A stretch of DNA of 64,000 bases from contig NC_134025.1 in NCBI RefSeq assembly GCF_964204645.1, positions 4,345,001-4,409,000 on the forward strand. The letters are read 5' to 3'. The position numbers were made by a program, and so were the translations under genes. Below the pieces are notes generated by a model that was not told where the DNA came from, searched no databases, and saw nothing but the letters and a program-made list of their open reading frames with translations. This DNA comes from Tubulanus polymorphus (lineage: Eukaryota; Nemertea; Palaeonemertea; Tubulaniformes; Tubulanidae). Shown one piece after another: positions 2,605-10,006 of this stretch (the first letter of the stretch is position 1; the number at the start of each line of letters is the position of its first letter).

Positions 2605-5600
2605 ATGCCGACGGAAAGCGACGAATTTGGGAGAACCAGGTAAGGTATTAATTTTGCTAATCTAATATATCACACACCCTTGGGCCGGGAGAGCAGTACC
2701 TGCATTTCTCTCTGTCCTGCAGTTTAAGTTAATTATACGTAAACCCTTTTTTTCGAAGGAAACGTCGGTAAAATAATAATCTAATTTCGAACATTATCAG
2801 TTACAAGATTCCCACTACAGTAGCTCGTTAGCTAGCGGACAATCCCTGAGCTATAACAAATTTCCTCTAACGACCAGATGTGCTCGTTTAAAGCTTCTTA
2901 TGTAGAATTTCACTTATAAGGCCTATACGTATATTTTCTCCGAAATGAAAATCATTAGAATATGCTAGCCTACTTAGGACTGGGTGTCGTAATGTTCAAC
3001 CATTTCATCTGATATCATTTGTGAATATCGTCATGAACATTTGCACATGCCGAAAGAGTGTTTCTGGTACTTCACCATTGTAAGTATTTTTCATCTCGCT
3101 TTCTATTGTTTTAAGAAGAGGAAAACCTGTCCTGGGACGGCAAATATTGATCCCTTGTCGAATACTTGTTAACAGGTGCTTTGACAATATGCAATTTCCA
3201 CCATTTCAACATGTAGAATGTTTCTCATTTCAGTCGCCTCGGTGTGTTCCGTGGATCGAGTGATACCGAACTCTTCAAACCTCAAGGAACGATTCCAACG
3301 CGGCAAAAACATCGCCAACATTCACCCGAACGTCGTAAATATACAGGTGTTCGTAAGCGAGATCACAGCCTACGGGAGTTAAAAAGAAGTTCCGTGAATC
3401 GTACTCGAACTGTAGCAGCCGTCTCTGCGACAGGTTTCGCCGATGACGAGGTATCTTCTAGACCACAAGGCAGGAATAAACGCGCTGTTAAGTCCAGTCG
3501 CTCGATATCAGAACCGGGTCCGAATCCGTATCAGCGAATCAGAACCAGTAAACGAGATTTAGAATCAACGGGCAATTTATTGCGCGATGATCATCATGAC
3601 AGCGAACTAGGGAGGGGATCCACATCAGAGCCTGATGTACGTCGTAAATCATTGAATTTTGACTCAATAAATCTGTCCGCTTCGCATTCTTCTATATCAA
3701 CGACGAAATGGCCAGATCGTAAAAACAGTCGTTCTATCGAACAGACGCAAAGACCTCCGCCAAAATTCGAAATTCCCGAAGTTCGCGTACAACCTCCCAC
3801 GACAGACACCGAATCGGAATCAACTGGAACTGAAACAAAGGATTTGACTCAAACCACTCGATCAATTAGCAATCATAATGATACGTCTCGGACTACATCG
3901 GAACGTGGCCCTTACGAATCAGCAACCAACGAAGTTAGTAACGTCAAATCAGCATATTAGTACATGATGCAGCATTTCTTTATTAGTCGTTCGTTCATCA
4001 TTTCTATTAGGTATTCTACTGCAGCTCAAAAGAGAGCTTGACTCTCACCTTGTCAGGGCAGCTTGTCAGGAATCTCCTACACTCTTCAAAATTCTCACCA
4101 AAGCGCTTATGGGGAGAGTTTTTTTTTTATCCCGCTTTCTAATTAACACTCTTATGTATACAATCTATCATCCGGGTTGTTGATGATATTCAACTAAACC
4201 GAATAGCTGGATATCCTCAGTTGATTGTTCGCCAACTGAATGATTATTTGCTGCGGGATCTTACAAACGATTTGATTTAGAAATATGTAATTATTTCAAT
4301 ACAAACCAGGATGATATATCAAAAACATACCTATTTTGTAATTTTGTATACATATGATATGATGACGATGTCCGCGTCGTTACAGGTACCAAAACTGGAC
4401 ACAACTGCACTCATAGGCGATAAATGTAATATTCCACTGGATAATGAAGTCTCATCGGTAAAAGTAGAACGAAATATTCTAGCCAAATCACTTTCGAGTG
4501 AGAAATCGGGAGAAATCTCTCATAATGCAGATGTTGATAACGATAATGTAGATAAAGCCGAATCAAAGATGGATAAAACAACTAAAGATATTTCTACGGA
4601 AGCTATTAAACAAATAGAGGAGATTGAATCAGATGATGATGATGACATTCTAAATCGTTCAAGACAGGTAAACGTGAATCTATAAAATTTATAGCTCCAA
4701 ATAATAAATGCGATTCCATCTCAAACACATGGAGTATAATTTCACTGAATGATACGCAGTTCACGTATAATTTCTACCTGAAATGAAGATTTTTATAACT
4801 GAATAGGGATTGTAATTACTCAGTCTTTTGTAGGAGGAGGATTTTGAAATAGAATCAAGTGAATTTGTTTTCGACCCAGACGGTAATATTTCGTACTACT
4901 GGATGGTAAGTACGTGTACATAGGTGTTGGGAATGGAAATTCGACTTCGACTTTTGTTCCCGTTGATAAGACGATTTGATTCGATTTCGAATCCCCAGCT
5001 CCCATTTGTTTCACAAATCACAGCATTTTCTGTTTTTCTTCTGGCTCCGTTGAATGTTCGATTAATCTAAAAACAGTCCTAACTTATGAAATTTATTTTC
5101 GATGAAACGTAACACATCATCATACTACATTGTGAAATATATGTAATTAGATTTGCGAGGTATCGGCAAGTCGCATGGATTATACATACTACATTCAAAC
5201 AACATGTTTTTCAATATTCAATAATTGAGATAAGCATTTAAAACAGCTGAACTATTATTGTATTGATTCTTATTGAATACATAGTTGCATTAGATTCCCG
5301 TTTCGAGTACACATCGCAGCTAGAAAATATTTTTGCGCCTTATGAAATATTAATTAGAAACAAGAATGATGATGAAAAATCAATACGCCCTTTATGAAAT
5401 TTCAATTCTGTGTACACCTGGTATATTCCATTACCAGATTTCTACTGTGCTTTCAGGGACTTGTTACTTTGACGGTGATGTATAACTGTTGGATGATCAT
5501 ACTAAGAATTGCTTTTCCAGAAATGCGCGAAGATGTAAGCTCCAACAAATTTATATCAAATAGCGCAAATAATTGAGTACCACGTGTATTAAGGCCAGCA

Positions 5601-8600
5601 TACATTATGAATTCATGTAGTTTATATGACATAAGTAGTCTTACTTAAGGAATAATAATATCATCACAAGTGACACTTATTTGAGACTATTGAAAGTTGA
5701 TGTTCCCCCTCGTATTAAAAGTCGTGAAAAATACGTCATCGTGCTTTTTTTGGTTTTTCAGCTTGTAAACCAAAGAATGTTTAACTTCTTCGACTTGGTT
5801 TGCGATCTATTCTACCTTGCCGATGTCTTCGTTCAGTTGCGTACTGCTTACCTGGAAAACGGAATTTTGGTAAGATAACCGCAGTAATATTGATATTGGC
5901 TTATGCCGTATTTCAAAATGCTGGAATACGTAAAGATTGTACATTGTCCGTGTATCGAAAAATGGTTCTTATTTCGTTCAGGTGCTCGATCCGGTGAAAT
6001 TAAGTCGGAACTACAGGCGGAAACCGGAATTCATACAAGATATGATCGCCATTGCACCAGTAGGAACCCTAGCTACTTTCGTCGCAAGTCAGTGTAAAAC
6101 CATCCTTTCACACAAAAATGTTGAATAGAAATATGGCATGACATTCTTTTAACTTGTATTATAGGGTTTACAGATACTGCTATCATGGATATTGGGGATA
6201 TCGATGGATGTAAGTTGAATATTATGAATCATATTTACTAAAATTATCATTATGTGAACATCTGTTTAGGCGGGAAAGTAGTATTATACAAACTCCGACC
6301 TCTCAAACCTTGAGCGCATTTATAAAGTGGGTGTCAACTTCTCTCAATGATATTTTGAAATTTGAAAACCCTGGACAAGAGTCTTATTTTTCTCGAGGAT
6401 TTCATATCTGTCATAATCACGCTTTTAATTCTCTTTTTTTCATAGCTGATGTCTATATACCAATTGTCCGAATTCCAAGACTGCTGAAGGTGTCTACTGT
6501 CGGTAGATTTTTCGATATTTCAGACAGTCGCACAAGTAACCCTAATATAATCAGAGCGATGAAACTGTCAATGTATCTAACTTTGGTCATTCACTGGATA
6601 GCTTGTTTTTATTATATGGTATCGCTTGTAAGTGAACTCTTCATCGCTTCTTACGATTAGATGAGCTCCAAGCGATTACCTCGGATTATTTGCCTTCTCT
6701 TGCAGTACGAAGGATTGGGCAGCAATGATTGGGTGTACCCTAATAAAACAGAAGACCTGGTATTCAGAAGGTAGGGCGAAATAATCAAACATCATAGTCC
6801 ATGGTGTCTGTCAAAATAAGTTCTGATTCAAAATTCAGAAGAAAATTTTCGGAATTTCGGAGTGCAATGTACTTGCATAACGACATTGTTCATGCTTATA
6901 TAACACGTAAATCTGCCCATTATATATTTGCAGAAAATACGTGTTATGTATCTACTGGGCAATGATGACTTTGACGACGATCGGGGAGACTGCTGGTCCA
7001 ACGACTGATCTTGTAAGTTTTTGTTTTTCTGTTTCAGCACGTATATACGAACTCTTTATTGGGCAACTATGACCCTTACTACCATCGGTGGTACTAATGT
7101 ACCTGTCACTACAATAGTGAGTATCTATATTGTTTAGTTAGGTTATCGTTGACTGTTTTGATATTGGGATTGGATTCTTTGAGTGCCCGACACTTTATTT
7201 GACGTGATGAAGTAGACACTTATTTCCGACACATTAGAACATCAACCGCTCAACGACTACTTTCAGGAATATATCTTCACTGGTGTTACGTTCCTCATCG
7301 GCGTTTTCGTTTTCGCCGCCGTTGTGGGTAACGTTGGCGACGTCATCAGCAATATGAACGCTGCCCGTCAAGAGTTTCAGTCGAGGATGGACCAGATAAA
7401 ATTCTATATGAATCATAGACGAGTACCAGAAGTATTGCAGAACCGAGTCAAACGATGGGCCGATTATTCCTGGTCGAGGTATGCCTCGACACAACCACAG
7501 CCGCTGAACATACGTGAATAATTTAAATTACCCGTGAACGTATTTTAATGAACCTACTGTTGAAGATACATACATATACTGAAAATCTAACATGAATTAT
7601 TTAGAATGAATTTTTGAGGCGTAGTCTATATACAATCGTATTTGGGTGTTTGTTTGTAGAACTCAGGCGATGGATGAAATATCTATGCTTGAAATGTTGC
7701 CAGAGAGAATTCGGACAGAAATAGCTATACACGTCCATCTCGAGACTCTTAAGAAGGTACCGCTATTTCGCTGATAGCCTATTGTTATATCATCGTTAAA
7801 AGCTAATGTCATTCTCACGCGATCGTCACTATTTTCCGAGCGCTCTAAGTCCACCCTCTGAATAGTAATGATTGCGTATGATGTTTTTAAGGTGAAGATT
7901 TTCGAAGAGTGTGAAATCGGTTTATTACACGAACTCGTGCTGAAATTACGAGCTCAGATTTATTCACCTGGTGATTACATTTGTAGAACTGGAGAAATCG
8001 GTAGATAGTTTTTAAAGGACATTTTTGAAGACTTTTTCTCGTAGCAAATCATGACTGCGTAGGCCTATATATAGTTTATACTTCGTTTCAGGGAGAGAAA
8101 TGTATATAATTAATCACGGCAAAGTAGAGGTACGCGAACCGGAATTGTTCGGTATGAATTTCATAAATTCGATCTAACCATATGATCTAACATTCGTTTC
8201 ATTGAAGATCCTCGTTAACAACTCGACCGCACCGGGAGGAAAGATGGTAGTTGCCAGTTTATCGGAAGGAAATTATTTCGGGGAGATTAGTTTGCTTAAA
8301 TTGGATTCTGGACAGAATAAGTATGTGCTCTTTCATCAACTAACGCAAAATCTATCAAATAAAAGCATCTTAATGAACGGGATTATTTTGTAGACGAACA
8401 GCTGATGTGAGATCTGTTGGATATTCCGAACTATTGGTTCTGTCTAGACGGGATTTGATGAGTGTAAGTATCACATGTGTATATTCGATTAATACACTAT
8501 CGACTGTTTTCAGTACAATTTCTAAATTCTTGATTTTGAATTTTCTAGGCCCTTGTCGAGTATCCTGATGCAAAACAAATATTAGAAGCACAAGCTCGAG

Positions 8601-10006
8601 AGAGGTACATATATATACATTACAAGAGGGTTATGGGCAAATTGAGTAAATCGAGTAAACAGGCATCTTAATGATACCACCCTCTCATTTCAATAATCAC
8701 TTAGATTTAAAATGATCAGACATGGTTCATAAAAACGAGAGAAATCCCACAATAAATTCAGCCAAAAATGAAAAGTTCTATATTAAGTACTGATGATGGC
8801 TAATAGCATTTAGCCGAAAGGTTGCTCGAAATATAATCATCTTTATATAGAACTTTTCATTTTTGGCTGAATTTATTGTGGGATTTCTCTCGTTATCATC
8901 ATACACGGATATTGTGTATTTTCTCGTCTCATGCTTCATTTTGATATGATATCATCTCATTATCGGTAAACAGGATGGAGAAAAATCGAGAGGTTCGTCG
9001 CACGAGTACAGTCGAGTCGAGTGATTCACAGGGAGCTACTGTACCCTCTGCTAATACCGAGCCTCCTTCTTCAAACAAGAAGAAGGACCAACTGATGCAA
9101 CTCATCAAATCAAATGATTTTCAACGCCTCGTTAAAGGAGGAAAAGTCGACGTTGGTAATTGATCTCGTGTTTCAAGAAATGAATTAGTTAAAAAGAGAA
9201 TAGTGATTCATAACGAATCAATTATTTCACAGGAAAAGAAATGTCTGAATTGCGACATGTGATACGAGAATTGAGAAGTTTCGATAGTCAATCGACAAAA
9301 TATCGCATTCAACAGTTAGCTGAAAAGGTCGGTATGGAGATTTTCGACAGAGTTTGTAATCTTATTTCGGTAACTATAACCGGATGCATATATAATAATA
9401 ATGTTGATGTGTATCTCGTAATTTTAGTGCGACGGTTTACAAGAGAAATTAAGAAAACGAGATGTAGAATTACGTCACGCAATTCGTCGAGTGAACGAAC
9501 TTGAGTTAATTCTGGCAAGTCCCGAGGAACGTGTGAAATTACAGTCTCGCAAAAAGTGCAATGGAATATCGCTGAGGCATCGGAAACATAAAGAACCAAA
9601 TAGTTCTGATAGTTTTCTACCCGCAGACACAAACGGAGCGAGCCATTCGCGTAAAATGCGAAGGCAGCAGCGCAGTGAAAGTACTGAAAGTTCTAATTCT
9701 CACAATTCCCCGCGGGATAAGATACATAGTCTCAGTCACGTGGTAGTGCCCGGAATCAGTATTAACGGTGTCGTAGAACAGGAAGTATCTAACTTGATTA
9801 TCGAAAAGGATGACGATGACGATGATCTTGAGATTGACGATGAACTCGATAATCGTGAAGAAAATGAAAAGGTTGTTCCGAACATTTTAGCGGATCTGGA
9901 AAGATTAGCGAACGATGTCAATTTGTACAGTGATACCTCCAAGTATAGTGACGACTTCAGTTCGACTGAAAACTCTTCCGATGATGACGACACGGATGAT
10001 AGATGA
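2605..10006 (+). CDS. Cyclic nucleotide-gated cation channel alpha subunit (CNGA-like), 21 coding exons
   Basis: Membrane cation channel opened by cGMP or cAMP, working as a tetramer, typically in sensory neurons. Exons: 2605-2639, 3234-3933, 4386-4667, 4834-4905, 5457-5534, 5762-5869, 5982-6087, 6165-6209, 6446-6627, 6706-6770, one of 6934-7012 or 7038-7116, 7267-7478, 7660-7756, 7892-8000, 8092-8129, 8208-8320, 8394-8463, 8549-8604, 8974-9155, 9233-9327, 9428-10006. All junctions match in phase and total 3,303 nt (1,100 aa plus stop). Residues 1-339 are a low-complexity, acidic N-terminus. S1 begins near 364, S4 (RIPRLLK) near 485, the pore spans 558-584, then S6 and the C-linker. The cyclic-nucleotide-binding domain lies about 688-816, with FGEIS and the RTA threonine of cGMP-binding subunits. 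A heptad-like coiled coil near 910-945 fits the CLZ trimerisation zipper of CNGA subunits, followed by an Asp/Glu/Ser tail. The start ATG directly follows an acceptor, so an upstream 5' exon is expected and extra N-terminal coding sequence is possible. Confidence 0.92.
6934..7012 (+). CDS. CNGA pore exon, version A (GET filter)
   Basis: A 79-nt exon bounded by TTTGCAG and GTAAGT. It encodes the pore helix and selectivity filter ([13 protein letters not shown]), residues 558-584 of the channel. The filter glutamate at residue 576 corresponds to the conserved Glu of CNGA subunits that binds divalent cations in the pore. It enters in phase 2 and leaves in phase 0. Only 25 nt separate it from version B. 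Confidence 0.9.
7038..7116 (+). CDS. CNGA pore exon, version B (GGT filter), alternative to version A
   Basis: A second 79-nt exon of the same length and phase as version A, bounded by TGTTTCAG and GTGAGT. It encodes the homologous pore segment ([13 protein letters not shown]) with Gly in place of the filter Glu at residue 576. Both acceptors join correctly to the exon ending at 6770 (Arg or Ser codon) and both donors to the exon starting at 7267. Including both would shift the frame, because 79 is not a multiple of three. The 25-nt gap is too short to be spliced as an intron. Confidence 0.85.
8734..8894. mobile_element. Long-arm foldback element in a CNGA intron
   Basis: The left arm (8734-8784) and right arm (8844-8894) are inverted copies of about 51 bp, differing at about one position, around a 59-bp loop. 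It lies wholly in the intron between exons ending 8604 and starting 8974. It is non-coding. This is a MITE-like foldback or a very recent inverted duplication; no target-site duplication was identified with confidence. Confidence 0.75.

Follow-up and report, generated by a model that had tools for sequence, protein, structure and literature searches.

The stretch of DNA analysed here (the window, 64,000 nucleotides from the nemertean Tubulanus polymorphus) carries a CNG channel gene on its forward strand, at positions 4359-10006, with the stop codon at 10004-10006. The gene has 19 exon positions, the alternative exons A and B being counted once, and encodes a protein of 864 residues in both isoforms, with an Ion_trans domain, a C-linker and a cNMP-binding domain. 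The model was built by hand with consensus splice sites and gives one open frame for either isoform; its start, the ATG at 4359, is putative, upstream exons having been sought by a simple frame scan only. In Pfam, the protein matches Ion_trans (PF00520, 1.9e-25) and cNMP_binding (PF00027, 1.4e-16), and the union of a six-transmembrane Ion_trans domain with a C-terminal cyclic-nucleotide-binding domain identifies it as a CNG channel.

Between the constant exon that encodes the S5-pore turret (6706-6770, forward strand, as are the exons, gap, candidate branch point and hairpin described below) and the constant exon for a CNGA-type S6 and the start of the C-linker (7267-7478) lie two homologous exons in tandem, exon A (6934-7012) and exon B (7038-7116). 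Each is 79 nt long and encodes the pore helix, the filter and the post-filter loop, the filter reading TTIGET in A and TTIGGT in B. Both are entered after two nucleotides of a codon and left on a codon boundary and, given this shared length and phase, either one alone fits between the exon ending at 6770 and that starting at 7267. The splice sites are of the consensus type (ttgcag/GTAAGT for A, tttcag/GTGAGT for B); the donor of exon B scores lowest among the donors of the gene on a small 17-site matrix but nevertheless matches the general GTRAGT consensus. In the inter-exon gap of 25 nt (7013-7037), the donor of A runs straight into the pyrimidine tract of B and its acceptor. Transcripts with A only or B only stay open, and the spliced pore segment compared for each isoform comprises 31 residues, whereas inclusion of both exons, of neither, or of A, the unspliced 25 nt and B results in each case in a frameshift or an early stop. 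The arrangement is thus that of a mutually exclusive pair, namely, homologous tandem exons in the same phase with the frame lost on double inclusion, and also that of a filter-switching pair of the NALCN kind, with alternative exons that differ at the ion-selecting residue (Glu340 versus Gly340). The original prediction of two adjacent 79-nt exons in identical phase is exactly confirmed in coordinates, lengths, splice sites and gap; the Glu to Gly change that it described recurs in the spliced isoforms, and the frame shift that it expected on double inclusion is borne out, skipping of both exons being equally disruptive. The one correction concerns the switched residue, which had been numbered 576 and occupies position 340 in the present gene model.

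The glycine of exon B had been likened to CNGB-type subunits, and for the filter residue itself the comparison stands: as in CNGB1 and CNGB3, the filter is TIGG, with Gly instead of the Glu of CNGA (PMC10761061). It does not extend to the gene. The window gene scores 130 bits against CNGA3 versus 85 against CNGB1 in phmmer and is 57% identical to human CNGA1/3 over S6 and the C-linker; in a tree of the shared S6/C-linker region, it falls with CNGA-like sequences, the CNGB clade (human CNGB1, CNGB3 and the CNGB of the same genome) being separate with 99/98 support. CNGB genes form a family of their own, marked by an Arg in S6 and a basic residue in the pore helix; the window gene, by contrast, retains the CNGA-type Gly in S6 (GNVGDVI) and has Met at that position of the pore helix. 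Thus, CNGB membership, as the Gly filter might suggest, is ruled out by the tree position and the S6 residues. The domain layout and the TIGE filter of isoform A are those of CNGA and of the CNGA-like groups CNGC/D/F (Lagman et al. 2022, PMC9803222); by the TIGE/TIGD filter that marks CNGA-like channels, isoform A belongs with them and isoform B, with TIGG, does not. Unlike classical CNGA, the window protein has no recognisable C-terminal leucine zipper: a Pfam search of it found no match to PF16526, although the paralogue L022 matches at 8e-24, which argues for a CNGA-like rather than a classical CNGA gene. Judged by these sequence characters, the gene is CNGA-like, within the range of CNGC/D/F-type groups, and not CNGB, so that the glycine of exon B is a CNGB-like state reached independently inside a CNGA-like gene.

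In the same genome, the CNGA-like paralogue L023 (G000:C11:5657167-5657520), which has no leucine zipper match either, runs through the region in one long open frame with the unusual filter TCIGEQ. The CNGB orthologue (G000:C3:2858405-2858701, minus strand, L024/L041) reads TATSIGKNPIP, the Glu/Gly site being occupied by Lys, whereas it is a glycine in human CNGB1 and CNGB3; a lysine in the filter ring could weaken cation binding further. Among the other CNG paralogues of the genome, no second pore-exon pair was seen.

We consider it very probable that A and B are genuine mutually exclusive exons of this CNGA-like gene, with exclusion expected to be steric and B expected to confer reduced calcium block. 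With 36 differences in 79 bases, exons A and B are too far apart for repeated-read error to explain them, and when the 26 whole-codon residues of exon A are run against the 64-kb window in six-frame translation, exon B matches at 14/26 and the next best segment at 8/26. An assembly artefact or a chance exon-like sequence is therefore hardly conceivable as the source of exon B, and nothing was found in favour of it, even though the comparison comes from one assembly of 268 Mb in 77 contigs. Silent sites are saturated between the two exons (pS 0.81) and replacement sites are not (pN 0.33), so the exons were duplicated long ago and their protein sequence has been held; in a simulation of neutral drift to the same DNA identity, none of 20,000 replicates kept 14 residues without a stop. 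Exon B resembles human CNGA3 and CNGA1 (15/26 and 14/26 matches) as closely as exon A does (14/26 and 15/26). Furthermore, exon B keeps 9 of the 10 columns that are invariant in six CNGA-type pores; the tenth, the Ser of column 9, is Ala in both exons, and at column 10 the Thr of the family is kept in B and is Met in A. Two acids are missing from exon B, that of the filter and the Asp close to the mouth of the pore (D to T). Exon B is not decaying faster than exon A, and the pair is, on this evidence, ancient and under purifying selection since duplication.

The same data weigh on the possibility that exon B, once an alternative, has lately been retired in a gene that now uses exon A alone. 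The canonical filter is indeed found in exon A alone, as that scenario would have it, but the reading frame of exon B is open, its two splice sites are intact and it retains the residues that are invariant in CNGA-type pores. Given that only 26% of simulated 79-nt copies remain intact after 5 random substitutions and 8% after 10, any retirement must be recent, and we regard it as very unlikely.

If, as we favour, both exons are in use, the layout of the locus suggests how splicing would take one of them per transcript. The introns of the exon-A transcript (n=18) measure 73-551 nt, so that the 25-nt gap falls far below the shortest intron of the gene model and, as had been proposed, is too short to be removed as an intron. 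In addition, the best match to yUnAy for exon B in the range of -15 to -60 is CTGAT at 7005-7009, 30 nt before B and 4 nt before the end of A; its adenine at 7008, the candidate branch point, falls within exon A. With the donor of A 25 nt from the acceptor of B and the likely branch point of B within A, machinery assembled on the donor of A would be incompatible with machinery on the branch point of B, and this crowding would keep the spliceosome from joining A to B; inclusion of both exons, or of neither, would ruin the frame as well. Steric exclusion of double splicing is thus the expected outcome, and the mutual exclusivity anticipated in the original prediction agrees with every sequence test applied, that is, phase, gap, frame, the candidate branch point of B in A, and constraint. 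There is precedent for the principle: in OGDH, a branch point near a donor enforces exclusive splicing, and alpha-tropomyosin is cited for the same relationship in that study (PMC7969005). As in alpha-tropomyosin and OGDH exons 4a/4b, exclusion would be explained by a branch point too close to the upstream donor; unlike in those genes (PMC7969005), the gap in the CNG gene is just 25 nt and the best predicted branch-point match lies within the upstream exon itself.

The choice between the two exons might have a further determinant. The upstream intron is predicted to pair with the 5′ half of exon A in an RNA hairpin at 6884-6964 (-29.8 kcal/mol, z -5.1), a fold computed on a single sequence that none of 200 shuffles equalled and that encloses the acceptor of exon A together with its candidate branch points. 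The A/B choice could, then, be driven mainly by this hairpin, a hidden acceptor leading to B and an opened one to A, with the short gap only blocking double inclusion. The position of the fold speaks for such a switch; however, the hairpin is one of 9 comparably strong folds in the 64 kb, and at about one per 7 kb the chance of overlap with the acceptor of exon A is roughly 2%. As a regulator of exon A, the predicted hairpin is suggestive only, and as the main driver of the choice it is possible but rather doubtful; it is, in any case, compatible with sterically exclusive exons. Docking-type pairing of exon B with its neighbouring introns was sought as well, and no perfect match of at least 8 nt was found. 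The duplex at 6884-6964 could also be an RNA editing target in exon A. Elsewhere in the gene, the intron at 8605-8973 contains an almost perfect inverted repeat (window 8729-8899). Its two arms, each of 59 nt, are separated by 53 nt and are 95% complementary, and it may be a small mobile element of the hairpin type.

What the two isoforms would do can be anticipated from work on CNG filters. Both the permeation of calcium and its blocking action require the filter glutamate, CNGB subunits have glycine in its place and show weaker calcium block, and changing the filter glycine of CNGB1 to glutamate strengthens the block (PMC10761061). Isoform A, with the standard filter and its ring of glutamates, would admit calcium and be blocked by it, in CNGA-like fashion. 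Isoform B has the glycine of CNGB at the filter and has also lost the second acid near the pore mouth; by analogy with neutralised CNGA channels, its homomers would be expected to be blocked only slightly by calcium and to let little of it through, possibly with a small inward current, and mixed A/B tetramers to have intermediate properties. If A and B share a tetramer, the A:B ratio would set the number of glutamates in the ring. We infer that both exons are used in RNA, that their exchange has an electrical effect and that the two kinds of subunit co-assemble; our confidence is high for the exon anatomy and moderate for this physiology.

Alternatively, both exons could be used, with B serving as a dominant-negative or low-conductance subunit that quiets the channel rather than retuning its calcium block. 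Neutralisation of the filter Glu markedly lowers inward current and produces outward rectification (PMC10761061), as this scenario would need. Yet current does pass through native CNGA/CNGB heteromers in which one filter has Gly (PMC10761061), and the constraint along the whole pore segment of B suggests a working pore, so that we consider a silencing role unlikely.

Retuning of the filter by a pair of mutually exclusive exons, as we envisage it here, is known from NALCN, a precedent absent from the original prediction, in which exons 15a/15b (EEEE/EKEE) and 31a/31b are mutually exclusive (Senatore et al. 2013, PMC3557258); published occurrences of 15a/15b span flatworms, molluscs, annelids, echinoderms and hemichordates (PMC3557258). 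With the human sequence of NALCN domain II used purely as bait, two tandem exons were identified in the Tubulanus genome (C2:31626573-31627060, minus strand, L042/L044), reading LLTQEGWVEV and ILTQKGWVEV. By their sequence, these are the published 15a (LTQEGW) and 15b (LTQKGW), and they serve as a positive control in that filter-switching exon pairs are recognisable in this genome; their presence also points to an animal from within that wide range of phyla. COX1 had no match in the assembly, and the annelid linker and molluscan haemocyanin families, tried as phylum markers, gave no hits, a result of no diagnostic value because the controls were silent too. Viral contigs, searched for relatives, yielded nothing. 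The CNG pair shares with NALCN (PMC3557258) tandem exclusive exons over the P-loop, a change of the key filter residue, and Glu in the upstream exon. By contrast, NALCN is a single chain of four domains in which one of four filter residues changes, to Lys, whereas the CNG exons alter a subunit of a tetramer, with a change to Gly; in the CNG channel, therefore, the change can extend to all four positions of the filter, and mixed tetramers are possible.

Within the open-access subset of the literature that we searched, no paper describing paired mutually exclusive pore exons in a CNG gene was found, and the main text of Lagman et al. 2022 (PMC9803222) mentions neither exons nor pore nor filter. 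Absence from such a subset is not proof, but the claim that no such CNG gene had been described holds to that extent. Filter switching by mutually exclusive exons is, then, already known from NALCN, and the CNG case appears new, no precedent having been found.

CNG channels as known so far adjust calcium block and permeation by combining the products of two gene families, CNGA and CNGB. Here, the tuning would come from splicing of one 26-residue cassette. Our tentative proposal, to which we give slightly less than an even chance, is that one gene provides both CNGA- and CNGB-type pore loops and that the ratio of A to B transcripts sets the number of filter glutamates, from 0 to 4, and with it a graded block. 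If this is true, calcium block would be cell-specific and graded without a separate CNGB gene product. The swap of A for B would be the natural equivalent of the classic experiments that neutralise the filter Glu, and would offer a testable system for the number of filter charges that a CNG tetramer needs. It would also add, after NALCN, a channel family in which the ion filter itself is under splicing control.
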